Origin: Clostridia bacterium
GTDB taxonomy: Bacteria > Bacillota > DSM-521 > Neomoorellales > SLTJ01
DNA length: 64,000 bases
Direction: 5' to 3'
Assembly (NCBI GenBank): GCA_024653205.1
Contig: JANLFO010000001.1
Span: forward strand, 1 to 64,000
Within the stretch, counting starts at the first letter, position 1; each line of letters begins with the position of its first letter. A program made the translations under genes and the position numbers. This document shows, one piece after another, positions 3,296 through 28,748 of the stretch. The notes under the pieces were generated by a model. That model was given only the letters and a program-made list of their open reading frames with translations, had not been told where the DNA came from and searched no databases.

Positions 3296-3427
3296 GGAGA
3301 CATCACCTCTAGCAACAGGTTAGCACAGAGCGCTCAAATCTGCAATATAGTAGACAATCGCGTCGTCCTCGCAGGTTCGGTCCCCGGCGAGTTGCACGTC
3401 TGCTTTGGCGAGCGGTCGCTTCGGACC

Positions 3428-3456
3428 TTGCGGGGTTTTCCAGTAGGGTATATAAT
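3428..3456 (+). promoter_or_regulatory. nadD promoter
   Basis: TTGCGG (3428-3433), a 17-bp spacer and a perfect TATAAT (3451-3456), about 45 nt upstream of the nadD start. It would drive nadD-rsfS-leuS-comEA. Confidence 0.7.
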
Positions 3457-3500
3457 AGCCAGGTGGGAAACCCCAAGGGGAGGTGCCAGGGCGCGGGAAA

Positions 3501-4136
3501 GTGTCTAGGCTGGGCATCATGGGCGGAACCTTCGATCCCATCCATTACGGCCACCTGGTAACGGCCGAGGCGGCCCGTACGGACTTTGGCCTGGAGGCCG
3601 TAATTTTTGTGCCCTCGGGGTCCCCGCCGCACAAGGCGGGTCAGGCGTTGACCCCTGCCCACCACCGCCACCAGATGGTGGTGCTGGCCGTGGCCAGCAA
3701 TCCCTGGTTCAGGGTTTCCCGGGTGGAGATCGACCGGCCGGGTTATTCCTACACCGTGGATACGGTGAGGGAATTCCAGCATCAATACGGCGGAGATGCC
3801 GAGTTTTATTTTATTACCGGCGCGGACGCCATACAGGAGATCCTGGCCTGGCACCGGGTAGACGAGCTACTGGCCCGGTGCCAGTTTATTGCCGCCACCC
3901 GCCCCGGATACCACCTCCAGAGTCTGGGGCAGGTGCTGGGCAAACTGTCGCCGGAGCAGCGCCTGCGCATCCACCTGCTGGAGGTGCCGGCCCTGGCCAT
4001 TTCGTCTACCGACGTGCGCCAGAGGGTGCGCTCGGGTCGGTCCATAAAATACCTGGTTCCGGAGGCGGTGGAGCAATACATTTTCGACCACGGGTTGTAC
4101 CGAGGGCGGGAAGAAAAGGAGGCGGCCGGCCGCTGA
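3501..4136 (+). CDS. nadD: Nicotinate-nucleotide adenylyltransferase
   Basis: Adenylates nicotinate mononucleotide to deamido-NAD with ATP in NAD biosynthesis. The nucleotidyltransferase signature GIMGGTFDPIHYGHL is at the N-terminus, followed by the phosphate-contacting SPPHKAG stretch and a C-terminal AISSTDVRQRVRSGRS. Length (211 residues) is normal. I prefer GTG 3501 because the family starts just before GIMGGTF. An alternative GTG at 3483 sits inside the GGGGAGG ribosome-binding run. The usual Bacillota neighbour yqeK is missing between nadD and rsfS. Confidence 0.95.
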   Translation: MSRLGIMGGTFDPIHYGHLVTAEAARTDFGLEAVIFVPSGSPPHKAGQALTPAHHRHQMVVLAVASNPWFRVSRVEIDRPGYSYTVDTVREFQHQYGGDAEFYFITGADAIQEILAWHRVDELLARCQFIAATRPGYHLQSLGQVLGKLSPEQRLRIHLLEVPALAISSTDVRQRVRSGRSIKYLVPEAVEQYIFDHGLYRGREEKEAAGR

Positions 4137-4177
4137 TGCCCCCGCACAGGGCCGTTCCTCCTGCAGACCAGGGGAGG

Positions 4178-4528
4178 ATGGTGGGTGAGGAGGCAGCCTG
4201 GGAAATGGCCCGGGTGGCCATGAATGCGGCGCTGGACCGCAAGGCCAGGGACGTGCTGGCCTTAGACTTGCGCCGTGTATCCCTGGTGGCGGACTACTTC
4301 GTTCTGGCCAGCGGCACCTCTACCACGCAGACCCGGGCCATAGCCGATCGGGTCACGGAAAAAATGCGGGAGGCCGGCTACACGCTGCTTCACACCGAGG
4401 GTTATAACTCCGCCCTGTGGATTCTTTTGGACTACGGGGCGGTCGTGGTGCACATCTTTCGCGAGGAAGAGCGGCGCTTTTACGACCTGGAGAGACTCTG
4501 GGGCGACGCCGAGGTGCGAACCGTTTAG
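4178..4528 (+). CDS. rsfS: Ribosome silencing factor RsfS
   Basis: Binds ribosomal protein L14 on the 50S subunit and blocks subunit joining, slowing translation on starvation. The 116-residue product carries the family core: RKARDVLALDLRRVSLVADY, FVLASGTSTTQTRAIADRV, TEGYNSALWILLDYGAVVVH and the terminal FYDLERLWGDA. ATG 4178 abuts GGGGAGG. ATG 4205, 11 nt after GAGGAGG, is an alternative that trims nine residues. It sits between nadD and leuS, as in many Bacillota. Confidence 0.93.
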   Translation: MVGEEAAWEMARVAMNAALDRKARDVLALDLRRVSLVADYFVLASGTSTTQTRAIADRVTEKMREAGYTLLHTEGYNSALWILLDYGAVVVHIFREEERRFYDLERLWGDAEVRTV

Positions 4529-4537
4529 GAGGAGACC

Positions 4538-7015
4538 ATGGAAGACCGTTACGATTTCCGGCGCCTGGAGAACAAGTGGCAGAAGGCTTGGGAGGAGCAG
4601 GATCTCTACCGGGTGGAGGAAGGCGGAGAACGGCCCAAGTACTACCTCCTGGAGATGTTTCCCTACCCCTCGGGCAACCTGCATATGGGTCACGTCCGCA
4701 ACTATTCCATCGGCGACGTGGTGGCCCGCTACAAGGTGATGCGGGGGTATAACGTGCTCCACCCCATGGGCTGGGACGCCTTCGGACTTCCGGCGGAGAA
4801 CGCCGCCATCCAGCACGGCATTCATCCGGCGGTGTGGACGCAGAACAACATCGAGAACATGCGGCGCCAGCTCAAGGCCCTGGGCTTCAGTTACGACTGG
4901 GAGCGGGAGATCACCACCTGTCTGCCGGAGTACTACCGCTGGACGCAGTGGCTGTTTCTCCAACTGTACAAGCACGGCCTGGCCTACCGCAGGAAGGCGG
5001 CGGTCAACTGGTGTCCCTCCTGTCAGACCGTGCTGGCCAACGAGCAGGTGGTGGGCGGGCGGTGCGAACGCTGTGAGACCCCGGTAGAGAAGCGCGATCT
5101 GGAGCAGTGGTTCTTCCGCATCACCGCCTATGCCGAACGGCTGCTCGAGGGGCTGGACCGGCTTCCCGGCTGGCCGGAAAAGGTAAAGGTGATGCAGGAG
5201 AACTGGATCGGCAAGAGCTACGGGGTGGAGGTAAAGTTTACCGGCCCCGAGGGCGAGGATCTGACGGTTTTCACCACCCGGCCGGATACCCTCTACGGCG
5301 TTACCTACCTGGTTCTGGCCCCGGAGCACCCCCTGGTGGAGAAGCTGGTGGCCGGGAGGCCGGAGGAACAAGCGGTACGGGACTTTGCCTGGCGGGTGCG
5401 GCAGATGAGCGCCGTGGACCGCACCGCGGCCGACCTGGTCAAGGAGGGGCTGTTTACCGGCGCCTGCGCCCGCCATCCCCTTACCGGTGAGGCCGTGCCC
5501 ATTTGGGTGGCCAACTACGTGCTTCCCGAGTACGGCACCGGTGCGGTGATGGGTGTGCCGGCCCACGACCAGCGGGACTTCGAGTTCGCCCGGGCCTACG
5601 GCCTGCCGGTAAAGCCGGTCATCAGGCCCGCCGAGGGCGGCCCGGAGGAAGGCGGGCTGGCCCAGGCCTACGAGGGTGACGGCGTCATGGTTAACTCGGG
5701 TCCCTTCAGCGGCCTGCCCAACCGGGAGGGGATCGAGCGTCTGGCCGACTACCTGGAGCAATCCGGCCTGGGCTGCCGCACGGTCAACTACCGGTTGCGG
5801 GACTGGCTCATCTCCCGCCAGCGCTACTGGGGGGCTCCCATTCCCATTATCTACTGCGACCGCTGCGGCATCGTGCCGGTTCCCGAGGAGGACCTGCCGG
5901 TGCTGCTCCCCCATGAGGTGCAGTTCAAGCCTACGGGGGAGTCGCCGCTGACCACCTGCCGCGAGTTCCTGGATACCACCTGCCCGCAGTGCGGAGGCCG
6001 GGCACGGCGGGAAAGCGATACCATGGATACTTTCGTGTGCTCCTCCTGGTACTTCCTGCGCTACGCCAGCCCCAACAGCCGTACCCGGGCCTTCCTGCCC
6101 GATAAGGTCAACTACTGGATGCCGGTGGATCAGTACATCGGAGGGGTGGAGCACGCCATCCTGCACCTGATGTACGCCCGCTTCTTTACCAAGGTGCTTT
6201 ACGACCTGGGCCTGGTGGGAGTGGACGAGCCCTTTACCAATCTTCTCACCCAGGGGATGGTACTGAAAGACGGCAGCAAGATGTCCAAGTCCAAGGGCAA
6301 CGTGGTCAGCCCGGAGGATATTATCGCCCGGTACGGCGCCGATACCGCCCGTCTCTTTATCCTTTTTGCTGCGCCGCCGGAAAGGGACCTGGAATGGAGC
6401 GACGCGGGGGTGGAGGGCTGCCACCGCTTCCTCAACCGGGTGTGGCGGCTGGTAAACTCCTTGCTTCCGGCCCTGGGTCCCGCCGGCAGAGCTGCGGCCC
6501 CAGAAAACCCTGCCGATCGGGAGCTGTGGCGGCTGGTGCACGGGACGGTCAAGCGGGTAACGGAGGACATCGAGGAACGGTTCAACTTCAACACCGCCAT
6601 CAGCGCCGTCATGGAGCTGGTCAACGGGCTTTACCGTTACCGGGACGACGTGGCGCCGGCAGAACAGGACCCGGCCCTGCTCCGTGTGGCGGCCGAAACC
6701 CTGGTGCTTCTGCTGGCTCCCTTCGCCCCCCACCTGGCCGAGGAACTGTGGCACCGGCTGGGCCACGTTCAAAGCGTGCACCGCCAGCCCTGGCCGGAGT
6801 ACGACCCCCGGGCGCTGGTGGCGGAAGAGGTGGAAGTGGTGGTGCAGATCAACGGCAAGGTCCGGGACCGCCTGCGCCTGCCCGCCGGCCTGGACGGGGA
6901 AAAGGCCCGCGAGTTCGCCCTGGCGCAGGGCAAGGTGCAGCAGTGGCTGGCGGGTAAGCAGGTCCTCAAAGTGGTGTGGGTTCCGGATAAACTCATAAAC
7001 CTGGTGGTGCGGTAG
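4538..7015 (+). CDS. leuS: Leucyl-tRNA synthetase
   Basis: Charges tRNA-Leu. The class I HIGH motif is HMGH at residues 49-52 and KMSKS is at 581-585 ([10 protein letters not shown]). A connective editing (CP1) domain lies between, with [19 protein letters not shown] and [19 protein letters not shown] typical of post-transfer editing. Zinc-type cysteine pairs occur near [12 protein letters not shown] and CERCETP. The anticodon-binding domain and the C-terminal extension ending [11 protein letters not shown] are present. Length, 825 residues, is normal. ATG follows TAGGAGGAG at good spacing, 9 nt after rsfS. Confidence 0.98.
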
Positions 7016-7025
7016 GGAAACAACC

Positions 7026-7628
7026 GTGGTTTGGGATCGTCGCCTACTGGTGGTGCTGGCGCTTCTGGCCGGTGCCCTGGCCTTTGCCGCCGGGGTCAAG
7101 TACGGGCGCCTGCGGAGCGAGCCGCCCCCGGTCCTGGTTCCGGCGGCGGAAACGGTTTCCGCGACCGAAACCACTTCGGAACAAGAGCCCAAGGCGGTCC
7201 GGGTGCACGTGGCCGGGGCGGTGGCCCGTCCCGGGGTGTACGAGCTGGCCGAAGGGGCCAGAGTCATGGAGGCGGTGCAACAGGCCGGTCCCCTTCCCGA
7301 AGCGGACGTCCACGCCCTTAACCTGGCCGCTCCGCTGGCGGACGGGCAGAAGATCACGGTTCCCCGGCAGGGAGAGTCCCCGGCTGCGGCCGGAGGCCCG
7401 GCGGCGTTCGCACCCGGCGCGGGTGGGGCGGGCGGGCCCATCAACATCAACGTTGCCAGCGCCCAGGAGCTGGAGGCCCTTCCCGGCATAGGGCCCACGC
7501 TGGCCCAGCGGATAGTGGCCTACCGGGAGGAGCACGGGCCTTTTCGTACGGTTGAAGACATAAAGAACGTCTCCGGGATAGGCGAGGGGCGCTACGCCCA
7601 GATCAAGGAGCTGATAACGGTATATTGA
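7026..7628 (+). CDS. comEA: ComEA-type DNA-binding protein
   Basis: A membrane-anchored DNA receptor for transformation. A GTG start gives a short cytoplasmic end, one transmembrane helix (residues about 7-26), a linker, an SLBB domain (VRVHVAGAVARPGVYELAEG to DGQKITVP), a Gly/Ala-rich linker, then two helix-hairpin-helix motifs (INVASAQELEALPGIGPTLA and ISGIGEGRYAQIKEL-like). The 200-residue size fits the Bacillota form. The DNA channel gene comEC, normally next, is absent here, so competence would depend on genes elsewhere. Confidence 0.92.
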   Translation: MVWDRRLLVVLALLAGALAFAAGVKYGRLRSEPPPVLVPAAETVSATETTSEQEPKAVRVHVAGAVARPGVYELAEGARVMEAVQQAGPLPEADVHALNLAAPLADGQKITVPRQGESPAAAGGPAAFAPGAGGAGGPININVASAQELEALPGIGPTLAQRIVAYREEHGPFRTVEDIKNVSGIGEGRYAQIKELITVY

Positions 7629-7657
7629 GAAAAGGAAGCGATGGATCCTCACCTTTC

Positions 7658-7694
7658 GCCGGCAGTCCTGTCCGGAGGAACCGGCACTGCCGGC
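7658..7694. repeat. 9-bp inverted repeat in comEA-crotonase gap
   Basis: GCCGGCAGT (7658-7666) and ACTGCCGGC (7686-7694) form a perfect stem with an inner CCGG pair. It may be a terminator remnant. The GCAGTCC word recalls the arms of the dispersed palindromic elements elsewhere in the window. Confidence 0.4.
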
Positions 7695-7735
7695 AGGGAA
7701 AAGTGAAGATGAGACAGTAAAAGGAGGGGTTTTCC

Positions 7736-8512
7736 TTGGGCGAAAAAGTGACCCTGGAAGTGGCAGAGGCTATTGCCCTGGTGACCGTCAACAACCCGCC
7801 GGTCAACGCCCTTTCCGCTCAGGTATTCGATGAGCTGGAGGCGGCGCTGGACGAGCTCTACCGGCGCCGGGACGTGGGCGCGGTCATCATCACCGGAGCC
7901 GGGGAGCGGGCCTTCGTGGCCGGGGCGGACGTGACCCAGTTTCCCAGCCTGGACGGGGTTTCCGGCGCGGATTTTTCCCGGCGGGGCCAGGGGGTGTTCG
8001 ACAAGATAGAGGAGCTGCCGGTGGTCTCCATTGCCGCGGTGAACGGTGCCGCCCTGGGCGGAGGCTGCGAGCTGGCCCTGGTCTGCGATCTGCGGGTGGC
8101 GGCGGAGAACGCCGTTTTCGGACAGCCCGAAGTCAACCTGGGGGTAATGCCCGGTTACGGGGGCACCCAGCGGCTGCCCCGGCTGATCGGTGCCGGCCTG
8201 GCCAAGGAACTGATCTTCACCGGGGATCCCGTTTCCGCCCAGGAAGCCTACCGGATAGGCCTGGTGAACCGGGTGGCACCCCGGGGCCAGGCGGTGGAGG
8301 AAGCCCGCAACCTGGCGCGCAAGATCCTGAGCCGTGCGCCCATAGGCGTGCGCGTGGCCAAGCAGTGCATCAACCGTGGACTCCAGACTTCCCTCCGAGA
8401 AGGACTGGCCCTGGAGGCCGCCGCTTTTGGGGGACTTTTCGAAACCGAGGACGCCAAGGAAGGAGTAAAGGCCTTCCTGGAGAAACGGGCTCCGGTTTTC
8501 CGGGGTCGATAG
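7736..8512 (+). CDS. Enoyl-CoA hydratase/isomerase (crotonase family)
   Basis: A 258-residue crotonase-fold enzyme that probably hydrates a short-chain enoyl-CoA. The oxyanion-hole segments are RAFVAGADVTQF and NGAALGGGCELALVCDLRVA. Both catalytic glutamates of the hydratase type are in place: Glu112 in GGCEL and Glu132 in QPEVNLGVMPGYGGTQRL. TTG start with AAAGGAGGGG upstream. No thiolase, acyl-CoA dehydrogenase or 3-hydroxyacyl-CoA dehydrogenase is adjacent, so the exact pathway is open. The next gene is a regulator 13 nt downstream. Confidence 0.9.
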   Translation: MGEKVTLEVAEAIALVTVNNPPVNALSAQVFDELEAALDELYRRRDVGAVIITGAGERAFVAGADVTQFPSLDGVSGADFSRRGQGVFDKIEELPVVSIAAVNGAALGGGCELALVCDLRVAAENAVFGQPEVNLGVMPGYGGTQRLPRLIGAGLAKELIFTGDPVSAQEAYRIGLVNRVAPRGQAVEEARNLARKILSRAPIGVRVAKQCINRGLQTSLREGLALEAAAFGGLFETEDAKEGVKAFLEKRAPVFRGR

Positions 8513-8525
8513 AGGTGGAAAGGGA

Positions 8526-9194
8526 TTGCTGAACCAGAAAGGCGCGGGAGGCCGCCGCGAAGGCGAGCTGGCCCGCTACGAGGAAATCGCCCTGATGCTG
8601 GCGGCGGACATCGCCCGCGGCCGCTACCGCGAGGGCGAGCGCATCTACGGCCGTTCGGTCCTGGCCGGCCAGTACAGCGTTTCCCCGGAAACCATCCGCA
8701 AGGCCGTGGCCCTGCTGCAGGCCCGGGAAGTGGTGGAAACGGTGGCCGGCAGCGGGATCATCGTGCTCTCGCGGCGGGCGGCCCAGAAGTTCGTGGAGGA
8801 CTTCGAGGAATTCTCCGCTCTGGAGAAGATGGAGAAGCGCCTGGACGAACTGCTGGAGCAGCGCAACCGCCTGAACGCGGAAATCGAGCACCTGACCCGC
8901 GAAATCGTGCACTATAAGGAAGCCCTCTTGAAGCAGATGCTGTACAACACCGAGGAGATCAAGGTGGGCAGCGGTTCGCCCCTGGTGGGGCAGAGCGTGC
9001 AGTCGGCCAACATCCGCGCCCTCACCGGGGTGACCGTGACCGCGGTGCGGCGGCGGGGGGTGCTTTTCGACTCTCCCGGGGAAGAGGTTACCCTGCAGCC
9101 GGGCGACGTACTGCTGGTGGTGGGGGATAAGGGGGGCAAGGAGAAACTGAGGGGTCTGGCCGCAGGGGCGGCCGAGGAGGCCGGAGAGATTTGA
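8526..9194 (+). CDS. GntR-RCK_C transcription regulator, BusR-like
   Basis: A 222-residue regulator: an N-terminal GntR-type winged helix (residues about 15-75, with YSVSPETIRKAVALLQAREV), a coiled coil (about 93-137, EKRLDELLEQRNRLNAEIEH) and a C-terminal TrkA_C/RCK_C domain (about 140-212, GQSVQSANIRALTGVTVTAV and VTLQPGDVLLVVGD). This layout is that of BusR of lactic bacteria, which binds c-di-AMP through RCK_C and represses an osmolyte transporter. Ligand binding here is inferred; no transporter is adjacent. TTG start after GAGGTGGAAAGGG. The stop overlaps the holA start (TTGA). Confidence 0.82.
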   Translation: MLNQKGAGGRREGELARYEEIALMLAADIARGRYREGERIYGRSVLAGQYSVSPETIRKAVALLQAREVVETVAGSGIIVLSRRAAQKFVEDFEEFSALEKMEKRLDELLEQRNRLNAEIEHLTREIVHYKEALLKQMLYNTEEIKVGSGSPLVGQSVQSANIRALTGVTVTAVRRRGVLFDSPGEEVTLQPGDVLLVVGDKGGKEKLRGLAAGAAEEAGEI

Positions 9195-10237
9195 AGTCTC
9201 AGGGGCTTACTCCGGGGAAGGTTCTGGCCCGGGCCCGCGAGGGCCGGCCGGAGCCTTTTTACCTTTTCTACGGTCCCGAGCGTTACCTTGTTCGCTTGGT
9301 GCTGGAGCGCCTGGCCGGCTGCCTGCCCGAGGAGGTGCGGGCCTTCAATTGCCTCTTTGCCGAAGGCGGGCAGCGGCCGGTAGCGGAACTGTTGGGCTGG
9401 ATCTCCACCTTTCCGGTGGGCGCTCCCTGGCGGCTTTTGGTGGTGCGGGACGAGGAGCTGCTCACCGGGAGATCCAGGCGCGAAGACGAGGAGGCCTACC
9501 TGAATTACCTCGCCCGGCCCGCACCGGCCGGCTGCCTGGTGCTGGTGGCCGGAGCGGAAGTAGATACGGCCGGGCGGCTCTACCGGGCCGCTGCCGCCGC
9601 CGGCCGCACGGTGGCCTTTGAGGCGCTGGAAGCCGGGGAAATGCGGCGCTGGGCCCGGGAGGAAGCCTCTGCCTACGGCAAGAGCCTGCGGCCGGATGCC
9701 CTGGCCTATCTGGTATCGGTTGCCGAAGGGGATCTGAGCTTCCTGCTGGGATCGGTGGCCAAGGCCTGCCTCTATGCGGGCGAGGCCAATGAGGTCGACC
9801 TGGCCGCCGTGCGCGAAGTGGTCTCGGCCACTCCTCAGGGCACCATCTTCAACCTGGTGGACGCGGCGGGTGAGGGAGATGCCGCCCGCGCCCTGGTCCT
9901 GCTGCGGCGGCTGCTGGACGGAGGCGAGGCACCCCTGCGGCTTTCCTACCTTCTGACCCGGCAGGTACGGCTGTTGCTGTGGGCGCGGCTGCTGGTGGCG
10001 GAGGGCAGGTCTTCGGCCGAGGTCGGCCGGCAGCTGGGGTTACCGGGTTTTGTGGCGGAAAGGCTCCTCCGGCAGATGCAGCGCTTCGATACGGACCGGC
10101 TGGAAGAAGCCCTGGAGGAACTCCTGGCCGTGGACGTGAGGCTGAAAAGCACCGGTCGGGATCCCCGGGCGGTGCTGGAAGAGGCAATCTGGTTTCTATG
10201 TAGGCCTGCTAGGGGGCTAGCAGGCCACCGCGGCTAG
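9191..10237 (+). CDS. holA: DNA polymerase III delta subunit
   Basis: Clamp-loader subunit that opens the sliding clamp. A 348-residue protein starting at TTG 9191, overlapping the previous stop by four bases. N-terminal PFYLFYGPERYLVRLVLERL is the family opening, with the degenerate AAA+ domain and the C-terminal collar (LRLSYLLTRQVRLLLWARLL) following. It is followed by convergent genes, with rpsT beyond, the classic holA-rpsT order. The last codons contain a perfect hairpin (10203-10226). Confidence 0.94.
   Translation: MKSQGLTPGKVLARAREGRPEPFYLFYGPERYLVRLVLERLAGCLPEEVRAFNCLFAEGGQRPVAELLGWISTFPVGAPWRLLVVRDEELLTGRSRREDEEAYLNYLARPAPAGCLVLVAGAEVDTAGRLYRAAAAAGRTVAFEALEAGEMRRWAREEASAYGKSLRPDALAYLVSVAEGDLSFLLGSVAKACLYAGEANEVDLAAVREVVSATPQGTIFNLVDAAGEGDAARALVLLRRLLDGGEAPLRLSYLLTRQVRLLLWARLLVAEGRSSAEVGRQLGLPGFVAERLLRQMQRFDTDRLEEALEELLAVDVRLKSTGRDPRAVLEEAIWFLCRPARGLAGHRG
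10203..10226. repeat. Perfect 10-bp hairpin at the 3' end of holA
   Basis: GGCCTGCTAG, loop GGGG, CTAGCAGGCC. It lies within the last codons of holA and just past the end of the convergent small gene, so it may act as a bidirectional transcription barrier. No T-tract follows on either strand. Confidence 0.55.
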
Positions 10238-10533
10238 CGGTCCTGGCGGGCCATCTGCTGTTCCCGCTGGATTTCCGCCTGGGTTTTGGAGGATCCGGGC
10301 TCGTCCTTGGCAGCGTTCTGCCAGGCCTGTTGGTTGCGGCGCTGCCGCTCCTGAGTGACTTGGGCGTTGTACTGCTCTTCCCGCCGGCTTTCGGCCGGGG
10401 TTTTGGCCGATCCCGGGCCGAGATCGGCGGCGGTTTCCCAGGCCTGGCGATTGCGCTGCTGCCGGGCCTGCTCGCGCTGCTGCTCGCGATTGATCTCGGC
10501 CTGCGTCTTCACCGAGCCCGCCTTGGGTGCCAA
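10234..10533 (-). CDS. Gln/Arg-rich repeat protein, possibly a gamma-type SASP-like spore protein
   Basis: A 99-residue hydrophilic protein built from repeats. Unit 1 starts KTQAEINREQQREQARQQRN, unit 2 starts KTPAESRREEQYNAQVTQER, and a final partial unit starts KTQAEIQREQQMARQDR. Linkers are AWETAADLGPGSA and AWQNAAKDEPGSS. There are almost no hydrophobic residues and no cysteine. Size, Q/N richness and repeats recall gamma-type small acid-soluble spore proteins, but their TEFASET motif is absent and arginine is unusually high. I prefer TTG 10533, nine nt after AAGGGGG; TTG 10542 is the alternative. Its stop shares CTAG with the convergent holA stop. Confidence 0.65.
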   Translation of the reverse strand: MAPKAGSVKTQAEINREQQREQARQQRNRQAWETAADLGPGSAKTPAESRREEQYNAQVTQERQRRNQQAWQNAAKDEPGSSKTQAEIQREQQMARQDR

Positions 10534-10621
10534 GCGGCTCAACCCCCTTCCCGGTATAGAGGTCTGAACTCCGGTTATAGTATGTGGTGGCGAGAAACAA
10601 AAAAACCGGTCGCCGTCTACC

Positions 10622-10666
10622 CAAGAAATGCAAAGCCGCAAGGACGTTTGCTCGCCTCCTTGCGGC
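10622..10666 (-). terminator. Rho-independent terminator of rpsT
   Basis: On the minus strand the stem GCCGCAAGGA / TCCTTGCGGC (10635-10644 with 10657-10666, 12-nt loop) is followed by TTTGCATTTCTT. It begins about 50 nt past the rpsT stop. Confidence 0.8.
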
Positions 10667-10712
10667 AGAAGACCCACGACCTGTGGCCCCGGCGCCGCGG
10701 GCTTTGGGCGGA

Positions 10713-10988
10713 CTAGGTTTGAGCGGTTTTCTTGTTAAAAAGCCTGTATAACAGCGACTTGCGGCGCGCGGCCGTATTCTTGTGCAGCACGCCCCGGGTA
10801 ACCGCCCTATCGATGACCCGAACCGCCTCGCGCAGCCGTTCCGACAGCAGTTGCCGGTCGTTCTGCTCCATGGCTTCACGGAAGCGCCGGATGGCGGTCC
10901 GGGTCCGGGACTTTACCGCCCGGTTGCGAAGGGCCCGGCGTTCCGCCTGCGCGGCCCGCTTGAGCGCCGACTTGTTCTTCTTGGCCAA
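10713..10988 (-). CDS. rpsT: 30S ribosomal protein S20
   Basis: Primary 16S rRNA-binding protein of the small subunit. The 91-residue product begins MAKKNKSALKRAAQAERRAL and ends with the LHKNTAARRKSLLYRLFNK motif. The start is TTG 10988: AGGAGGT lies at proper distance, and S20 proteins begin at this AKKNKSALKR block. A GTG four codons upstream would lie inside the ribosome-binding site. It has its own promoter and terminator. Confidence 0.97.
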   Translation of the reverse strand: MAKKNKSALKRAAQAERRALRNRAVKSRTRTAIRRFREAMEQNDRQLLSERLREAVRVIDRAVTRGVLHKNTAARRKSLLYRLFNKKTAQT

Positions 10989-11017
10989 GTGCGGTGTCAC
11001 CTCCTATTCGCCCTACC

Positions 11018-11046
11018 ATTTTAGCATCCCGGAACCCTTCTGGCAA
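11018..11046 (-). promoter_or_regulatory. rpsT promoter
   Basis: Minus strand TTGCCA (11041-11046), 17-bp spacer, TAAAAT (11018-11023), about 30 nt upstream of the S20 start. Confidence 0.7.
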
Positions 11047-11134
11047 CACCACCCGCCGCCGACTTGTCCAGAGTTTACCTCGGCCGGCGAGGCGGCCGGC
11101 GGGAACGGGAATTCCCCCGGCCGGGCCGGGGTCG

Positions 11135-12652
11135 TCAGGGCAGGGGAACGATCAGGTATCCTTCCCCGGCGTTTCCCAGGGCCTCGTAGCGGCCGGCCAG
11201 GTAGAAGTAGCCCACCAGGGCGGCGGTGAGCGCGTCCAATTGGTGGTGGCTCGGCCGCCGGCCTCGGGCCGGCAGGCGCACCCCGGCGTCTACCAGCGCC
11301 CGGTGTAGTCCCTCCAGGTCCGCCCGCTTGCGCGGCCAGCCCAGGATGTCCTGGGCGGCTCCCGGGTAGCACTCGATGACCTCCTTTCCTTCCCGGCGCA
11401 GCCGCTCGGCCAGGCGCATGCCCCGGAGGGTGAGCCCGCGCATCTTTTCGATCAGGCAGGGATACACTCTGATGCCCCGGCGGACGAGGACCCGCTCGCA
11501 TTCACGGGTGAGACCGTGAACGCGGCACGGGCAGGAGTCGCTGGTGCAGCAGCGCCCGGCCGGCAGGCTCAGGGGAGCATCGATGGACACCAGTTCGGCC
11601 CCGGCGGCCCGGACCAGTCGCATTATTTCCTCGTCGGTCGCGGCCCGCGCGAGGTCGGCCTCCTCGCCTCTCAGCAGGCAGAAGCCCGTCTCCCGGGCTT
11701 CGGTGGCCGCCAGGTCTATCCCTACCGCCGCCGGAACCCGCCCGCGGGCCTCGATTTGCCGGATCAGCCCGGGAACCAGCAGGGGGTGCCGGCCGGAGGC
11801 ACAGGCTGCGGCCGGACCGGGTTCTCCGGGCAGCGGCCGCCCGAAGGCATCGGGCAGGTACGGGAGGGCGTCGGGGGCCGGGCCGGAAGAGAAAGCCGGG
11901 TCGGGCGAAAAGCCGGCCTCGCGGGCCTTGAGGGCATAGACCAGGTCCATGAGCCGGGCCAGGTTGACCGTATCGCAGCGGTTGTAGAGCAGCAGCCGGT
12001 CAAGGGCATCCCGGTCCCCGTCCTGGAAACGCCGCCACAGCACCACCGCCTGGTGGCCGTCTATATCCCGTACCGTCTCCGGCCGGGAAATGCCGAGCCT
12101 GGCCTCGATGCGTTTGAGCGGCCCGCCCAGGCCCAGACCTTTCAGCAGGTAGCGCAGGTCGAGGTGAATGGGGGGAAGGAGTATTCCCGGGAACTCCCGG
12201 CGCAGGAAGCTCAGGTCGAAGAGGGTGCCGTTAAAGGTCACCAGGATTGCGAAGCCCCGCAGGTAGTCGGCCGCAGCCTCCAGATCCGCTCCCCTGACGA
12301 AGGCCCGGGCTCCGCCGGCGTCGCAGCAGCCGATCACCGTTACCCGGTCGTAGTAGGGCGACAGACCGGTGGTCTCCAGGTCAAGGAACACCGTCCGGGC
12401 CCTAAACTCGGCGTAGGCGCGCCAGTGTTCCCGGCGGGGCAGGTGGCGGGCGAAGAACGCCGCCTGCTGCCGGGCCAACGCCTCTTCCGCCCGCGAAAGG
12501 TATTCCCGGGCCGCCGCCTGCTGGCGGCGGTTGAGCCCTGCCGCGCCCAGCCCGGACCGCAGATCGTTCCAGGTGAGGATCCGGCGCTGCCAGAGCCGGT
12601 TTTCCGTGTGCCGGCCTATGCCGGGGATGAAGATGAAAGAGTGCCGCAGCAT
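11135..12652 (-). CDS. Ribonuclease H-like (YprB-type) exonuclease fused to a DUF429 domain
   Basis: A 505-residue two-domain protein. Residues about 85-245 are a DEDD-type RNase H-like domain of the YprB family: TVFLDLETTG with Asp91 and Glu93, ILVTFNGTLFDLSFL with Asp146, and LLYNRCDTVNLARL with Asp227. A Pro/Ala-rich linker follows (about 248-305). From about residue 309 a DUF429 domain starts (AVGIDLAATEARETGFCLL, then VSIDAPLSLP, EVIECYPGAAQDILGWPRKR, SHHQLDALTAALVGYFY). DUF429 is itself RNase H-fold-like with unknown substrate. A cysteine cluster (CCTSDSCPC) lies between. Both halves keep their key residues, so this looks like a real fusion rather than an assembly error. Confidence 0.85.
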   Translation of the reverse strand: MLRHSFIFIPGIGRHTENRLWQRRILTWNDLRSGLGAAGLNRRQQAAAREYLSRAEEALARQQAAFFARHLPRREHWRAYAEFRARTVFLDLETTGLSPYYDRVTVIGCCDAGGARAFVRGADLEAAADYLRGFAILVTFNGTLFDLSFLRREFPGILLPPIHLDLRYLLKGLGLGGPLKRIEARLGISRPETVRDIDGHQAVVLWRRFQDGDRDALDRLLLYNRCDTVNLARLMDLVYALKAREAGFSPDPAFSSGPAPDALPYLPDAFGRPLPGEPGPAAACASGRHPLLVPGLIRQIEARGRVPAAVGIDLAATEARETGFCLLRGEEADLARAATDEEIMRLVRAAGAELVSIDAPLSLPAGRCCTSDSCPCRVHGLTRECERVLVRRGIRVYPCLIEKMRGLTLRGMRLAERLRREGKEVIECYPGAAQDILGWPRKRADLEGLHRALVDAGVRLPARGRRPSHHQLDALTAALVGYFYLAGRYEALGNAGEGYLIVPLP

Positions 12653-12730
12653 GGTCTACCTCTCGGCCTGAATAATACGCCTGTGCACGGCGTGCGGCAA
12701 CCCTGGCCCGAACGGTGATTCCTCCGGCTC

Positions 12731-12939
12731 CACCCGGCGGTCCTGGTTCCCCCGAGCACCTAAAGCGTGCCGGGCACCGAACTCGGCGAGGGCGGAGGCG
12801 GGCCGGAGGCCAAGGATGGCCGAAGCCGCGCCGGCGCCACGGACGGCGCCTAAGCGGCGTGCCCGCCGGAGGGCGAAGCCCGAGCCCTAGTTCGGTCGGC
12901 AAAGCGACCGGTACAAGGGGGAACCCGGACCGCCGGGTG
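12731..12939. repeat. Dispersed palindromic element, copy A
   Basis: A full 209-bp copy. The arms 12731-12753 and 12917-12939 are 23-bp inverted repeats with one mismatch. Inside are the shared blocks seen in the other copies: TACCTAAAGC-type left block (here GCACCTAAAGCG), CCGAACTCGGCGAGG, GGCGGGCCGGAGGCC, GGCGCC pairs, and the right hairpin GGTCGGCAAAGCGACC. It lies between the divergent RNase H-DUF429 and holin-like genes. Confidence 0.85.
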
Positions 12940-13066
12940 GAGTAACGCTGAACGGCCGCCGGTTTTGGCTGTTGAGCACGGTACTGCCGGTCGTTCGAGG
13001 CTCCCAGTTGATGGTATAATTCCGTCCCTTGCCGGTCAAGCTAATAGCGGGAAGGAGGTGTAGCCT

Positions 13067-13405
13067 GTGGGCAAAGTGCTGGCGGTAGTAATCCGCTTCC
13101 TGGTGTCGGCGCTGGTCCTGCTGCTTATCGGGTGGTTCCTGCCCGGGATACGGGTGGCGGGCTTCACCGGAGCGCTCATAGCGGCGGTGGTGATCGCCGC
13201 TCTGGGATACCTGGTGGAGACCGTGCTGGGGCCTAAGATTTCCCCCCGCAGCCGGGGCCTCGTGGGGTTCATCACCGCCGCCGTGGTCATCTACGTGGCC
13301 CAGTTCATAGTGCCGGCCTACTTGTCGGTGAACATTCTCGGCGCGCTGCTCGCAGCCCTGGTGATCGGCGTCGTGGATACCTTTGTACCCACCGCTCTAC
13401 GCTAG
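13067..13405 (+). CDS. Phage holin family 4 (YvlD-like) membrane protein
   Basis: A 112-residue membrane protein with four hydrophobic helices: FLVSALVLLLIGWFL, ALIAAVVIAALGYLV, LVGFITAAVVIYVAQFIVP and ILGALLAALVIGVVDTFV. It matches the YvlD/'phage holin family' group of Bacillota, which despite its name is mostly chromosomal and not tied to phage; function is unknown. GTG start after GAAGGAGGTG. Its position between rpsT and spoIIP is where gpr normally lies. It is bracketed by copies A and B of the palindromic element. Confidence 0.82.
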   Translation: MGKVLAVVIRFLVSALVLLLIGWFLPGIRVAGFTGALIAAVVIAALGYLVETVLGPKISPRSRGLVGFITAAVVIYVAQFIVPAYLSVNILGALLAALVIGVVDTFVPTALR

Positions 13406-13479
13406 TCGCAGGTGGAGGCGGATGAAACGCAGGACGCGGCCCTTAACCGGGCCGCATTCCTTATGACTCGTGCTTTTTG

Positions 13480-13691
13480 CCCCGGCAGTCCTGGTTTCTC
13501 CGGGTACCTAAAGCGTGCCGGGCACCGAACTCGGCGAGGGCGAGGGTGGAGGCGGGCCGGAGGCCACGGACGGCCGCAGCGGCGGGGCGCCACGGACGGC
13601 GCCTCCGCCGGTAGCCCGCCGGAGCCCGAAGGTCGAGCCCTAGTTCGGTCGGCTAAGCGACCGGTACAAGGGGAAACCAGGACTGCCGGGG
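13480..13691. repeat. Dispersed palindromic element, copy B
   Basis: A full 212-bp copy. The arms CCCCGGCAGTCCTGGTTTC (13480-13498) and its exact complement (13673-13691) give a perfect 19-bp terminal stem. Internal blocks match copy A, including CGTGCCGGGCACCGAACTCG and the right hairpin GGTCGGCTAAGCGACC. It lies between the holin-like gene and spoIIP. Confidence 0.88.
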
Positions 13692-13781
13692 ACAGTGGGG
13701 CAACCGGGCCGAGGCCCACCTGACGGTACTATAACCGGCAGGCGGCGCATAGACTGGGGTAGGAGAAACGGGGGGACAAGA

Positions 13782-14768
13782 GTGCGCCTCTACCTGGTCT
13801 TGCGCCGCCGTCGCCTCTTCGCGGCGGCCCTGCTACTGCTGATCGGGTCCCTACTTCTCTTCGGCGTTCCCCGCCTTTCCTGGCCGCGCACGGATCTCCC
13901 GGTTAGCTGGGGCAAACGCATTTTGACCTCGGTGCTCCCGCTCCCGGGTTCGGAGCCCGTGCTCGCCTCCTGGTCTTCCGGTTGGAGCGGCGTGGACCTG
14001 AGGACCCCGCAGGGGTGGCTTCAGGTGCAGATGCCCGCGCTTTCTACCGGCCGGGGAGAGGCCCTGCCGGCCGCGGGGCGCTATAACCCGGAGGAGGAGG
14101 AAGAAGAAGAGGTCTCGCCCCGCCCCGGTATACCCCTGGAGCCGGTGAATCCGGTGCTTCCTCCTACCGGACAAGCCGAGGAGGTAGAGCTGTTCATCTA
14201 TACTACCCATAACGCGGAAAGCTACCTGCCTGACTACGGGGTGGCCAGGGTTTCTCCGGGGACTTCGGGCGGGGTGACCCGGGCGGCGGCCGCCCTGGCG
14301 TCGGCCCTGGAGAGAGAAGGGGTGCGGGTGGTGCTTTCTCCGGCCATCCACGATTACCCCGAGCTTACCGGCGCCTACGCCCGCTCTGAGGTCACCGTCA
14401 AGGCGGCTCTGGCCGCCTACCCGAATCTGGCGGCAGTCATCGACGTGCACCGGGACGCCGGCGATCGTCCGGTGACCGCGACGATAGAGGGGCGGGAGGT
14501 GGCGCAGGTGCTCCTGGTGGTGGGCTCCAACCTGCGCTTGTCCCATCCCACCTGGGAAGAAAACCTGGCCTTCGCCCGCCGGGTGGAGACCAGGATGGAG
14601 CAGCTCTATCCGGGCCTCTGCCGGGGGGTGAGGGTTCAGAGCGGGCGCTACAACCAGCACCTGCACCCGCAGGCCCTGCTGGTGGAGATCGGCAACCAGC
14701 ACAATACTCTGGAGCAGGTGGAGGCGGCGGCCGGACTGCTCGCCCGGGTATTAAAAGAAGTAATCTGA
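13782..14768 (+). CDS. spoIIP: Stage II sporulation protein P
   Basis: Peptidoglycan amidase/endopeptidase that works with SpoIID and SpoIIM during engulfment of the forespore. The 328-residue product has an N-terminal membrane anchor (RLFAAALLLLIGSLLLFGVP), an acidic low-complexity stretch of glutamates, and the catalytic domain with FIYTTHNAESYLPDYG, VIDVHRDAGDRP and LLVEIGNQHNTLEQV, which supply the metal-binding His and Glu residues. I chose GTG 13782 because a longer upstream frame has no family similarity; a GGGGG run gives the ribosome site. Confidence 0.94.
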   Translation: MRLYLVLRRRRLFAAALLLLIGSLLLFGVPRLSWPRTDLPVSWGKRILTSVLPLPGSEPVLASWSSGWSGVDLRTPQGWLQVQMPALSTGRGEALPAAGRYNPEEEEEEEVSPRPGIPLEPVNPVLPPTGQAEEVELFIYTTHNAESYLPDYGVARVSPGTSGGVTRAAAALASALEREGVRVVLSPAIHDYPELTGAYARSEVTVKAALAAYPNLAAVIDVHRDAGDRPVTATIEGREVAQVLLVVGSNLRLSHPTWEENLAFARRVETRMEQLYPGLCRGVRVQSGRYNQHLHPQALLVEIGNQHNTLEQVEAAAGLLARVLKEVI

Positions 14769-14812
14769 TGGTATAATTAGGGGCGTGATCGGAGCAAGGG
14801 AGACGGGTCTGG

Positions 14813-16375
14813 GTGAGAGGTAGCCAGGGAACGGCGGGCGCCGCGGGACTGTTGACGGCCGCCATGGTCGCCTCTCGCCTATTGGGCTACGTGCGCGAGG
14901 TCCTTCTCTATGCCCGCTTCGGGCAGAACAACCTTACCGATGCCTATCAGGCGGCCTTTTCCATCCCCGATTTTCTCTACCTGCTGCTGGTGGGGGGAGC
15001 CCTGAGCTCGGCCTTCATACCCGTATTTGCGGGATATTTGGCCACCGACCGGGAAGAGGAGGCCTGGAAGGTGGCCAGCACCGTCTTCAACTTCGTCATT
15101 CTCATGATGCTGGTGGGCATCGGTCTGGGGCTGATCTACACCCCGCAGCTGGTGCGGCTTCTGGTGCCGGGCTTTGACGCCGAAACCATGCGGCTGACGG
15201 TAAAGCTCACCCGCATCATGTTTGCCCAGGCTTTCTTCATGGCCTTAAGCGGCGTGGCCATGGGCGTGCTCTATTCGTACCGGTATTTCACCGCCACCGC
15301 CCTTTCCGCGGTGCTCTACAACCTGGGGATTATCCTGGTGGGCTGGTTCCTCTCCCCCTATCTGGGCATTACCGCTTTTTCTCTGGGAGTGGTAGTGGGC
15401 GCGGTGGCGGGATTTGCCGTGCAGGTGCCGCCTCTGTTGCGCTACGGGGTGCGCTACCATTTCAGCCTTAACCTCGGCCATCCCGGGGTACGGAAGATCT
15501 GGCGTTTGATGGTGCCGGTCCTGATAAGCCTGTCCGTCACCCAGCTCAACCTGTTCGTGAACCAGAACCTGGCCTCCCACCTGGCCGAAGGACTGGTGGC
15601 CGCGCTGCGCACCGCCCAGCGGCTGATGCAGCTCCCCATCGGCACGCTGGGCGTGGCCCTGGCGGTGGCCAGCTTCCCCAACCTTACCATCCAGGCGGCC
15701 CAGGGCCGGTACGACGACTACCGCCGCACCCTCTCCCTGGGCCTGCGCTCCCTGGTCTTCCTCCTGGTCCCGGCCAGCCTGGGCCTGATCGCCCTGCGGG
15801 TACCCATAGTGCGCCTGCTCTTCGAGCAGGGGAAGTTCACCCCGGAGGATACCCTGGCCACCGCCCAGGCCCTGCTCTTCTACTCCCTGGGCATCGTGGC
15901 CTACGGGTGCATCCAGGTGCTGAACCGCTCCTTCTACGCCCTTCAGGACACCACCACCCCCATGGTGGCCGGGGTGGCGGCCATCGGCCTCAATATCTGG
16001 CTGAACGTGAGCCTGGTGGGACCCCTCGGTCACGGCGGCCTCGCCCTGGCCTACTCCCTGGCCGGCGGGTTCAACTTCGTGCTGCTTCTGCTCCTCTTGC
16101 GGCGACGCTTGGGCCGAATAGGCGGGCGGGCCCTGGCCACCTCGGGGCTCAAGAGCCTCCTGGCCGGCACGGTGGCGGTGCTGGGCGCCTGGGTGGTCGC
16201 CGGGCACCTGGAGCCGTACGCCCTGCTCGCGGGCAAGCTGGGTCAGGCACAGCAGGTGGGTGCGGCTATAGGCCTGGCCCTGCTGGTATTCGTGCTGGCC
16301 GCGGTGGCGATGCGCATGGAGGAAGTGGGCCAGGTCTGGGAGGTAGTGAAGCGCCGCCTGGGCCGCCAGCCCTAG
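14813..16375 (+). CDS. murJ: Lipid II flippase MurJ
   Basis: A 520-residue MATE-like polytopic protein, about 14 helices, that moves lipid II across the membrane for peptidoglycan synthesis. Opening AAGLLTAAMVASRLLGYVRE and the RFGQNNLTDAYQAAFSIPDF segment are characteristic, and VRLLFEQGKFTPEDT appears in the second half. GTG start. A TATAAT lies at 14772-14777 upstream with no good -35. It separates spoIIP from lepA, which is not the most common arrangement; a role in spore cortex synthesis is possible but inferred. Confidence 0.93.
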   Translation: MRGSQGTAGAAGLLTAAMVASRLLGYVREVLLYARFGQNNLTDAYQAAFSIPDFLYLLLVGGALSSAFIPVFAGYLATDREEEAWKVASTVFNFVILMMLVGIGLGLIYTPQLVRLLVPGFDAETMRLTVKLTRIMFAQAFFMALSGVAMGVLYSYRYFTATALSAVLYNLGIILVGWFLSPYLGITAFSLGVVVGAVAGFAVQVPPLLRYGVRYHFSLNLGHPGVRKIWRLMVPVLISLSVTQLNLFVNQNLASHLAEGLVAALRTAQRLMQLPIGTLGVALAVASFPNLTIQAAQGRYDDYRRTLSLGLRSLVFLLVPASLGLIALRVPIVRLLFEQGKFTPEDTLATAQALLFYSLGIVAYGCIQVLNRSFYALQDTTTPMVAGVAAIGLNIWLNVSLVGPLGHGGLALAYSLAGGFNFVLLLLLLRRRLGRIGGRALATSGLKSLLAGTVAVLGAWVVAGHLEPYALLAGKLGQAQQVGAAIGLALLVFVLAAVAMRMEEVGQVWEVVKRRLGRQP

Positions 16376-16412
16376 AGACGCCTTGGCGATCCGGCGGTTG
16401 GGCTGCCTCAGG

Positions 16413-16624
16413 GTCGGCGGTCCTGGTTTCTCCGAGTACCTAAAGCCTCGCCGGGCACCGAACTCGGCGAGGGCGAGCGTGGAGGCGGGCCGGAGGCCAC
16501 GGAAGGCCGAAGCCGCGCCGGCGCCATGGATGGCGCCTAAGCGGGGAGCCCGCCGGAGCCCGAAGCACGAGCCCTAGTTCGGTCGGCGAAGCGACCGGTA
16601 CGAGGGGGAACCAGGACCGCCGGC
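16413..16624. repeat. Dispersed palindromic element, copy C
   Basis: A full 212-bp copy. The perfect core of the terminal stem is CGGCGGTCCTGGTT (16415-16428) with AACCAGGACCGCCG (16609-16622). Internal hairpin 1 is perfect: CCTCGCCG (16446-16453) with CGGCGAGG (16465-16472). Hairpin 3 is GGTCG-GCGAAG-CGACC (16581-16596). It ends 36 nt before the lepA promoter. Confidence 0.88.
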
Positions 16625-16659
16625 ACGATAGCCCGGGGAGATGCCAAAGACCGGCCTCC

Positions 16660-16688
16660 TTGTTGCCCCCCGGGGCCAATGTTATAAT
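16660..16688 (+). promoter_or_regulatory. lepA promoter
   Basis: TTGTTG (16660-16665), 17-bp spacer, perfect TATAAT (16683-16688), about 30 nt upstream of the lepA start and directly after palindromic element C. Confidence 0.75.
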
Positions 16689-16717
16689 GGTCCACGGAAA
16701 ACGAGGGGGACGGAGGC

Positions 16718-18517
16718 TTGGATCCGCGCTTCATTCGTAATTTCTGCATCATCGCCCACATCGATCACGGTAAGTCCACCCTGGCGGACCGCCTGCTGGA
16801 GTTTACCGGAGCGATCGAGCCGCGCGAGATGACCGAGCAGATCCTGGACCAGATGGATCTGGAGCGGGAGCGGGGCATTACCATCAAGATGAAGGCGGTG
16901 CGGCTGGAGTACAGGGCTTCGGACGGCCACACCTATTACCTCAATCTCATCGATACCCCCGGCCACGTGGATTTCAGCTACGAGGTGTCCCGGAGTCTCG
17001 CGGCCTGCGAGGGCGCGCTTCTGGTGGTGGACGCCACCCAGGGCGTGCAGGCCCAGACCCTGGCCAACGCCTACCTGGCCATCGACCAGAATCTGGAGAT
17101 CATCCCGGTGATCAACAAGATCGATTTGCCCAGTGCGGACGTGGAGCGGGCGAAGCGGGAGATAGAGGAAACGGTGGGGCTGGACGCCTCGGAGGCCATC
17201 CTGGTTTCCGCCAAGATGGGCTGGGGAACGCAGGAGGTGCTGGAGGCGGTGGTGCGCCGCATTCCGCCGCCGGGGGGACGGGCCGAAGCGCCGTTGCGGG
17301 CCCTCATCTTCGATTCCCTCTTTGATAATTACCGGGGGGCGGTTCCCTACATCCGGGTGATGGACGGCCGGGTGCGCGCCGGCGATCGCATCCGCCTGAT
17401 GTCCAGCGGCCTGGAATTCGAGGTGGACGAGGTGGGCATCTTCACGCCCCAGCGCCGGCCGGTGGAGGAACTCTCGGCCGGTCAGGTGGGCTACCTCACC
17501 GCCGGCATCCGCCAGATCGAGGACACCCGGGTAGGGGATACCATCACCGGTGCGGACCGGCCGGCGGACGAGCCCCTTCCCGGGTACCGGCCGGTAAAGC
17601 CCATGGTCTTCTGCGGGCTCTACCCCACCGACAACCGGGCCTACGAGAATCTCCGGGACGCCCTGGCCAAGCTAAAGCTCAACGACGCCGCCCTGGTTTA
17701 CGAGCCGGAGACCTCCCAGGCCCTGGGTTTCGGCTTTCGCTGCGGTTTTCTGGGCCTGCTGCACATGGAAATCGTGCAGGAGCGGCTGGAACGGGAGTAC
17801 GGGCTGGAGCTGGTGAGTTCCGCGCCCAGCGTGGCCTACCGGGTGGTGAAGACCGACGGCGAGGTCCTGACCGTCGACAATCCCAGCCGCCTGCCGCCGC
17901 CGGAGAAGATCGACCGCATGGAGGAGCCGGTGGTCAAGGCCACCGTCCTGGTGCCCTCGGCGCACGTGGGGCCGGTAATGGAACTGGCACAGGAGCGCCG
18001 GGGCCAGTTCCTAGGCATGGACTACCTGAGCGGCGACCGGGTGATGCTCACCTACCGCCTGCCCCTGGCGGAAATCATTTACGACTTCTTCGGCCAGCTG
18101 AAGGCCCGCAGCCGGGGCTACGCCTCGCTGGATTACGAGTTCGACGGCTACCAGGAGGCGGACCTGGTGCGGCTGGACATCCTCATAAACGGGGAAATGG
18201 TGGACGCCCTTTCCTGCATCGTGCACCGGGAACGGGCCTACCAGAAGGGGCGGGAGCTCACGGTCAGGCTCAAGGAACTGATCCCCCGCCAGCTTTTCGA
18301 GGTGCCGGTACAGGCGGCGGTGGGCAGGAAGATCATCGCCCGGGAGACGGTGAAGCCCCTGCGCAAGGACGTGCTGGCCAAGTGCTACGGCGGGGACGTC
18401 ACCCGCAAGAAGAAACTTCTGGAGAAGCAAAAAGAAGGCAAGAAGCGTATGAAGCAGATAGGCAGCGTAGAGATCCCGCAGGAGGCCTTCATGGCCGTCC
18501 TGCGGCTGGAGGAATAG
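16718..18517 (+). CDS. lepA: Elongation factor 4 (LepA)
   Basis: A ribosome-associated GTPase related to EF-G, implicated in 30S biogenesis and back-translocation. The 599-residue product has G1 [15 protein letters not shown]2/G3 [15 protein letters not shown] and [20 protein letters not shown], and G4 [16 protein letters not shown]. The C-terminal LepA-specific domain ends with [23 protein letters not shown] start with GGACGGAGG upstream. hemW follows after 5 nt, the usual lepA-hemW pair. Confidence 0.98.
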
Positions 18518-19685: not shown

Positions 19686-19766
19686 CGGCAGCCCTGGTTC
19701 CCCCTGGTAGCGGTCGCTTAGGCGACCGAACTAGGGTTCGAGCTTCGCGTTGCGGCGGGCTCCGAG
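19686..19766. repeat. Dispersed palindromic element, copy D (half element, inverted)
   Basis: About 80 bp of the right half of the element in reverse orientation: GGCAGCCCTGGTTCCCCC, then GGTCGCTTAGGCGACC and CGAACTAGGGTTCGAGC. The other arm is missing, so this copy is truncated. It lies between hemW and the UbiA-type gene. Confidence 0.75.
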
Positions 19767-28557: not shown

Positions 28558-28590
28558 GCAGCACCGGGGCGGTAACTGTATATCCTTGTC

Positions 28591-28748
28591 CTGGCAGCCC
28601 TGGTTCCCCCTAGTACCGGTCGCTTCGCCGACTAAACTAGGGATCGAGCTGCGGCCTCCGGCGGGCCGCCCGCGCAAGAACCCGTTCATGGCGCCGGCGC
28701 GGCTTCGGCCGTCCAGAGGCCTAGCGCCCGCCTCTACCCTTCTGCCAG
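28591..28748. repeat. Dispersed palindromic element, copy F (inverted, shortened)
   Basis: A reverse-orientation copy of about 158 bp closed by a short stem: CTGGCAG (28591-28597) and CTGCCAG (28742-28748). It holds CCTGGTTCCCCCTAGTACCG, GGTCGCTTCGCCGACT, CTAAACTAGGGATCGAGC and ATGGCGCCGGCGCGGCTTCG. The left-half hairpin is deleted. It ends 33 nt before the rpsU promoter. Confidence 0.8.

Follow-up and report, generated by a model that had tools for sequence, protein, structure and literature searches.

A DEDDy exonuclease joined to a RuvC-like DUF429 domain in a Clostridia bacterium, and a candidate nucleotide-based antiphage cassette in two other carriers of the fusion

MrfB of Bacillus subtilis is presumably the protein formerly called YprB, and the MZB domain is taken here as the marker of its partner, the helicase MrfA. 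MrfB has been described as an exonuclease that degrades DNA 3'-5' in a Mg-dependent manner and has a histidine at position 258 and a C-terminal TPR domain (PMC11194089). DUF429 was placed in 2014 in the RNase H-like superfamily, in the same clade as RuvC, by a study that also names DUF429 fusions with Nudix and RelA/SpoT domains (PMC3985635); with phosphomethylpyrimidine kinase added, such fusions to nucleotide enzymes are named across this source and a further one (PMC3153485, PMC3985635). Two reports credit M. smegmatis MSMEG_5849 (RelZ) with RNase HII activity in its DUF429 domain (PMC4429107; PMC7591505), and the second describes the RNase domain as active solely within the full-length protein. 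In PMC12884076, the PurZ group of synthetases is marked at the Asp13 place by Ser (147 phage sequences) or by Ser or Gly (four archaeal sequences). Among the matches listed for DUF429, PurZ/PurA and antiphage-nucleotide topics, no title or abstract opening described the fusion or the cassette reported here, and DUF429 together with diadenylate cyclase gave no literature match; the search string "DUF429" also catches papers on DUF4297.

The window, the whole stretch of 64,000 nucleotides analysed here, contains a gene in which an MrfB-like exonuclease and a DUF429 domain form a single protein. Its features are as follows.

11135-12652, minus strand: complete fusion ORF, 505 aa, ATG start; helix-hairpin-helix-like (HhH-like) part, DEDDy exonuclease, linker and DUF429 (predicted RuvC-like)
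12659-12664, minus strand: Shine-Dalgarno-like GAGAGG, 7-12 nt upstream of the ATG, read from the sequence
12473-12652, minus strand: putative N-terminal HhH-like region, residues 1-60, IPGIGxxTExRLW; weak evidence
11939-12391, minus strand: RNase_H_2 exonuclease domain, residues 88-238, with D91/E93, D146 and Y223/D227
11768-11917, minus strand: linker, residues 246-295, poorly conserved
11180-11722, minus strand: DUF429 domain with predicted RuvC-like fold, residues 311-491, with D313, D358, E427 and D473
11525-11551, minus strand: cysteine cluster, C368, C369, C374 and C376

Both domains scored above their Pfam cut-offs: RNase_H_2 (PF13482) at residues 88-238 (107.5 bits, E 8.7e-31, cut-off 22) and DUF429 (PF04250) at residues 311-491 (30.5 bits, E 3.8e-7, cut-off 23). 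No further Pfam domain was found at E 0.001, and no NCBIfam model matched the protein. When 101 relatives were searched, seven gave any match, and the sole additional full-length match was in G002, a Clostridia MAG of the same family (contig SLTJ01000007.1). A two-fusion profile matched 95 of 247 genomes in the phylum to which the uncultured Desulfobulbaceae MAG G406 belongs, and a single one of these, G833, was matched across both halves (705 bits); in that of the euryarchaeal MAG G404, the source of locus L036, 96 of 292 genomes matched, each within one half. Identity over aligned residues is 55.7% between the window and G002, 46.2% between the window and G833, and 57.1% between G002 and G833.

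These relatives decide whether the join is real. Split by codon position, the G+C content comes to 0.71/0.47/0.86 for the exonuclease part and 0.77/0.52/0.85 for the DUF429 part, like adjacent genes in both cases. The linker has values of 0.82/0.70/0.80, and the remaining two minus-strand frames are open there too, so that composition is nearly uninformative there and the evidence for the join is the relatives. The window linker differs from those of G002 and G833 (residues 246-295 are 17% and 6% identical to the two). That a sequencing or assembly artefact fused two genes is extremely improbable: nothing was found in its favour, and the identical architecture recurs in two further assemblies at 46-56% identity. 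An error at the linker is ruled out by G002 and G833, which align with the window protein through both halves, and this removes the refuting case proposed in the earlier note, namely absence of the fusion from relatives together with a linker error. That note had read the gene as a YprB-type DEDD domain and a DUF429 domain in one 505-residue protein, both with intact acidic motifs, and it was right on each count, given the two Pfam matches, the two relatives that share the fusion and the invariant acids described below. The fusion is a real, conserved architecture and not a frameshift artefact; it is a novel combination of already known domain kinds.

In the N-terminal half, D91-x-E93, D146 and Y223-xxx-D227 are invariant in all six aligned sequences (two fusions and four standalone proteins), which also have N141 in common, and the acid set is thus of the DEDDy type. 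With a profile above the cut-off and the DEDD acids in place, this half belongs to the PF13482 RNase_H_2 exonucleases. Its profile found MrfB (8un9, E 9.7e-8) as the best solved match in the PDB; a search with the window sequence alone did not recover MrfB at E 1 and gave weak matches to a diDNase ancestor (E 0.0035) and nanoRNase C (E 0.024). While the fusion shares the DEDD exonuclease core with MrfB, it is different in three respects. First, its last motif, Y223-N-x-x-D227, has an invariant Tyr where MrfB has His258, so that it is not a DEDDh protein. Second, the TPR domain of MrfB is unmatched in the fusion (Pfam, E 0.001). Third, the fusion adds an N-terminal HhH-like part and the C-terminal DUF429 domain. 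The HhH-like part matched weakly: the profile of six N halves aligned with the matching region of DNA polymerase mu at E 0.02-0.06, and the homologue L037 scored 21.2 bits against DNA_pol_lambd_f, under the cut-off of 29.8.

One possibility, which we rate as less probable although still substantial, is that the fusion is a solitary enzyme of house-keeping DNA repair or R-loop clearance, comparable to MrfB or RelZ. The position of the gene would suit this: rpsT (S20; 10713-11000, same strand) lies downstream, and a holin-family gene followed by spoIIP lies on the other side, on the opposite strand. So would the spread of unfused N-half homologues running from the model start to about position 235 or beyond; counted by hand, 62 genomes out of 292 from one archaeal phylum have one, as do 47 out of 247 from the G406 phylum. 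However, the MZB domain that marks MrfA, which both G004 and the B. subtilis control contain, was not found in the draft genomes G000 (the window genome), G001, G002 and G833, and an MrfB-MrfA repair pair was rejected because it is missing from the three that carry the fusion. The distribution of the DUF429 subfamily also argues against a house-keeping role. Its profile matched six of 398 genomes of the window's phylum, with 393 bits in G000, 400 in G002 and less than 30 in the others, and a gene strongly matched in just two of 398 genomes is unlike a house-keeping gene. The Pfam DUF429 model matches 24 of the same 398 genomes, yet misses G002, whose copy scores 22.9 against the cut-off of 23.

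For the DUF429 half, a 33-sequence alignment of this half only (A8) was used. It takes in 18 of the 20 DUF429 sequences of one retrieved set and leaves out L141 (which has an internal stop), L154, the Dyadobacter protein discussed below and the DUF429 loci L008-L034. An alignment of the fusions with single-domain relatives (A7) was dropped after DUF429-only rows had been aligned onto the exonuclease half, and a full-length fusion model from two sequences (pLDDT 40) was not used. The AlphaFold model of the DUF429 half has a mean pLDDT of 96.3 and a pTM of 0.92, and its comparison with RuvC and RNase H folds, which the earlier note had proposed, put T. thermophilus RuvC at the top of the VIA-align list (Z 12.5, 141 residues aligned, 2.9-3.0 A). 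Foldseek ranked MOC1, RuvC and Ydc2 at the top, with one match at E <= 0.001. The sequence profile of this half found no solved relative in the PDB (best E 0.86). D313, D358, E427 and D473 are invariant in all 33 aligned sequences; in the model, strand 1 ends at D313, strand 4 is closely followed by D358, and E427 and D473 lie within strand 5 and the last long helix, respectively. We take RuvC D7, E66, D138 and D141 to fall in the matching elements. By its predicted fold and acidic set, the DUF429 half belongs to the RuvC-like branch of the RNase H-like superfamily, which agrees with the position beside RuvC given to the family in PMC3985635.

Compared with the DUF429 family (PF04250; COG2410/COG4328/COG4923; RNase H-like clade D), the window protein is above the cut-off, has identical acids at the four positions and has a predicted RuvC-like fold, but adds an exonuclease and a CCxxDSCxC stretch. 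Both it and RelZ (MS_RHII-RSD of M. smegmatis) consist of a DUF429 domain joined to another enzyme, which in RelZ is a (p)ppGpp synthetase, with no exonuclease described, whereas the fusion has no RelA/SpoT Pfam match. With the Holliday junction resolvases RuvC and MOC1 it shares a predicted fold (Z 9.8-12.5) and acids in corresponding elements, but identity is 12-20%, and the likeness is one of predicted fold. The statement in the earlier note that DUF429 has no established function needs amending in view of the 2014 superfamily placement and the RNase HII activity cited for RelZ; its suggestion of a nucleic-acid role gains from the RuvC-like fold of one half and the profile match of the other to MrfB.

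The same VIA-align list contains non-nucleases with a RuvC-like fold (Spt6, Tex, MutS and sugar kinases, Z 8-9). Such proteins, together with the other fusions of DUF429 with nucleotide enzymes named above and an HD-like one recognized by eye in L013, would be compatible with a DUF429 half that has no catalysis of its own and regulates the exonuclease by binding nucleotides or nucleic acid. This is quite unlikely, as four acids invariant in 33 of 33 sequences are not needed for binding alone and disfavour a pure binding domain. In L013 (1444-2706, minus strand), a single ORF joins DUF429 to the N-terminal HD-hydrolase-like region.

The CCTSDSCPC stretch that had been noted inside the DUF429 half was located at residues 368-376, and the pattern CCxxDSCxC is kept in all three fusions. 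A related pattern, CCxxDDCxC, occurs in four standalone DUF429 proteins (L114-L117, phylum of G406), so that 7 of the 33 aligned rows have the cluster altogether. It is absent from the closest standalone relative found, a Dyadobacter plasmid protein that is 47% identical over the DUF429 half. Based on these two results the cluster is an accessory feature, and a part in the active site was rejected given its occurrence in 7 of 33 sequences. From its sequence, a metal site at the cluster is plausible.

That both halves are nuclease-like is well supported, and a single chain with two such domains, drawn from widely separated branches of the RNase H-like superfamily, makes the barely tested DUF429 family directly testable. 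The reading that we consider probable is that the fusion combines an HhH-aided DEDDy exonuclease with a RuvC-fold nicking half that feeds it ends. The N-terminal HhH-like part would grip DNA, and the DEDDy domain would remove nucleotides in the 3'-to-5' direction using two metal ions. What the DUF429 half, as a metal-dependent nuclease, would nick is probably a structured or RNA-containing substrate (junction, flap or R-loop); these nicks would supply ends to the exonuclease. We infer, going beyond the data, that both sites are active, what substrate is nicked and that the halves are coupled. RelZ, whose DUF429 domain is reported to cut RNA:DNA hybrids and R-loops (PMC4429107; PMC7591505), sets a precedent that supports the nuclease reading; the RuvC-like folds of non-nucleases and the reported need of the RelZ RNase for the full-length protein (PMC7591505) weigh against it. 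Further points against it are the single-sequence search that missed MrfB, the lack of a solved DUF429 relative by sequence, the dissimilar window linker and the absence of a PurZ-type partner from the window's genome.

The three fusions cluster in the tree of the N half (SH-aLRT 99, quick tree) and in that of the DUF429 half (bootstrap 90, SH-aLRT 95; not starred), in which the Dyadobacter standalone DUF429 protein is their sister (99/97). In these trees, rows with less than 80% (N half) or 75% (DUF429 half) model coverage were dropped, and duplicate G002 and G833 loci were kept as identical rows. As the fusions group together in both halves, a single fusion event with later transfer is the simplest reading, and from the sequences the fusion probably arose once and moved between phyla. 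Among viral contig candidates, neither the DUF429 subfamily nor the fusion had a relative, and one distant DCD match was obtained; the DUF429 half had no match in phages at E 0.01, and nowhere in 72,556 plasmid records did a match cover 80% of the fusion protein. Standalone DUF429 genes have few neighbours in common at the eight loci compared (L111-L122 without L115, L116, L121 and L122): with DUF429 itself and frames overlapping it excluded, these were only those of L114/L117 (37%, 288 aa) and L118/L120 (26%, 209 aa).

Two of the three known carriers, G002 and G833, have the fusion at the head of a cassette, where it is followed by a short PurZ-type synthetase gene, a dCTP-deaminase-like (DCD-like) gene and a dNK kinase.

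L035, 5860-10203: G002 cassette, with the genes behind the fusion at 7593-10203
L110, 1247-5349: G833 cassette, with the genes behind the fusion at 2841-5349

As called, the first three genes overlap, and a gap of 24-28 nt separates them from the kinase (73 nt in G002 if the aligned Met is its start). Between the two genomes, identity is 57% for the fusion, 67% for the PurZ-type protein, 39% for the DCD-like protein and 64% for the kinase, the last being also the basis on which the G833 kinase was assigned. This cassette is the most interesting lead. It ties the fusion to cellular PurZ-type enzymes and, judged from sequence, may be an undescribed nucleotide-based antiphage system; Kongming, a dITP-based system, is an analogue.

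The fusion itself could then be part of such a system, with the window copy as its orphan, although we regard this as doubtful. Under this explanation, the exonuclease-RuvC protein would degrade phage or damaged DNA and free dNMPs, the PurZ-type enzyme and kinase would convert dGMP to an unusual nucleotide, and the DCD-like domain would bind this nucleotide, whereupon its two transmembrane helices would open the membrane. The shared four-gene order is in its favour, and so are the synthetases. In both PurZ-type proteins Gly stands in for Asp13 and an RVGGNSG stretch is present; in a 21-row tree, which does not include the short archaeal PurA type, they join phage and rhizobial PurZ-type proteins with PurA opposite (branch support 100/99), so that both cassettes have the replaced Asp13 and tree position of the PurZ group. 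Unlike phage PurZ of the 2-aminoadenine pathway, the cassette gene belongs to cellular genomes and has genes for a DCD-like predicted membrane protein and a kinase as neighbours. Against this, the whole-sequence PDB matches are best for the adenylosuccinate synthetases 5k7x (an archaeal PurA) and 2d7u, at about 239 bits, with phage PurA-like 7vf6 (163 bits) and PurZ 7odx (92 bits) further down, and the G002 protein scores 224.6 bits with NCBIfam PurZ (NF038379, cut-off 300) and more, 327.9 bits, with the adenylosuccinate synthetase model PRK04293 (cut-off 368), under the cut-off in both cases.

Both DCD-like proteins have two hydrophobic C-terminal stretches, predicted as transmembrane helices with a Kyte-Doolittle script, and carry APL or CPI at what we take to be the place of the catalytic-Glu motif of E. 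coli Dcd. One G833 helix barely passes the threshold (1.64 against 1.6), and the DCD-like protein of S. medicae has no predicted helix with the same script. Matches to PADLOC models were obtained for the G833 DCD-like protein (PycTM, E 2.3e-6) and for the cassette kinases (VakA, E 4.3e-7 and 5e-6), but not, at E 0.01, for the G002 DCD-like protein or either PurZ-type protein. The DUF429 halves of the three fusions and the Dyadobacter protein match part of PADLOC PDC-S44 (29-37 bits). The surroundings are also suggestive of defence: in G002, IetA (237.5 bits) and a short IetS-like gene (a fragment) end 1.3 kb upstream of the cassette, and in G833 a nucleotidyltransferase/HepT (toxin-antitoxin) pair starts 1.5 kb downstream. 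The sister standalone DUF429 gene is preceded by a diadenylate cyclase, which scores 435 bits with an NCBI antiphage model, under the cut-off of 630. On the Dyadobacter plasmid (L039, 4435-6597), the DUF429 gene lies directly after this cyclase, which has DACNG/DACNH domains.

The cassette was seen in just two genomes, and its context lies outside the window's genome, which is 98.8% complete and contains one canonical PurA and no PurZ-type gene. The window copy, from its sequence context, stands apart from a PurZ-type partner and so must act without one, or is a leftover. A PurZ-type profile at E <= 1e-70 matched none of 259 genomes in a phylum sample that evidently does not include G002, and without a known positive this empty result says little. 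It is unlikely that the fusion, PurZ-type enzyme, two-TM DCD-like sensor and deoxynucleoside kinase form an undescribed mobile antiphage system in which a 2-aminoadenine-type purine deoxynucleotide would be made from degraded DNA and sensed to open the membrane. If true, this would be an immune pathway based on base-modified deoxynucleotides, a chemistry also found in the DNA of some phages.

Rhizobial plasmids carry PurZ-type genes (L132, 6401-8014; L133, 6404-8005; L131, 6251-9012) that either have a weakly DCD-like neighbour (21.7 bits, cut-off 27) or are joined to a kinase-like domain. Two arrangements were observed: a kinase-like/PurZ fusion followed by DUF7002, and a PurZ-type and DCD-like pair with a divergent YfbR-like gene. 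These loci are possible relatives of the cassette; the PurZ-type genes and neighbours tested had no PADLOC match.

Near the fusion gene in the window, a 147-aa ORF at 10234-10677 (minus strand) has internal repeats (KTQAEINREQQ...) and matches no Pfam or NCBIfam model; it resembles, we assume, a gamma-type spore protein. A dispersed, G+C-rich MITE-like repeat of about 205 bp with inverted-repeat ends occurs at 12736-12939, 13484-13690, 16416-16623 and 24552-24734, with partial copies at 19686-19760, 28590-28740 and 44917-45006. Its three copies within 10000-17000 match no Rfam family. The larger copies are 82-89% identical, the DNA fold has a z of -5.5, and one copy ends 84 bp upstream of the start of the fusion gene.
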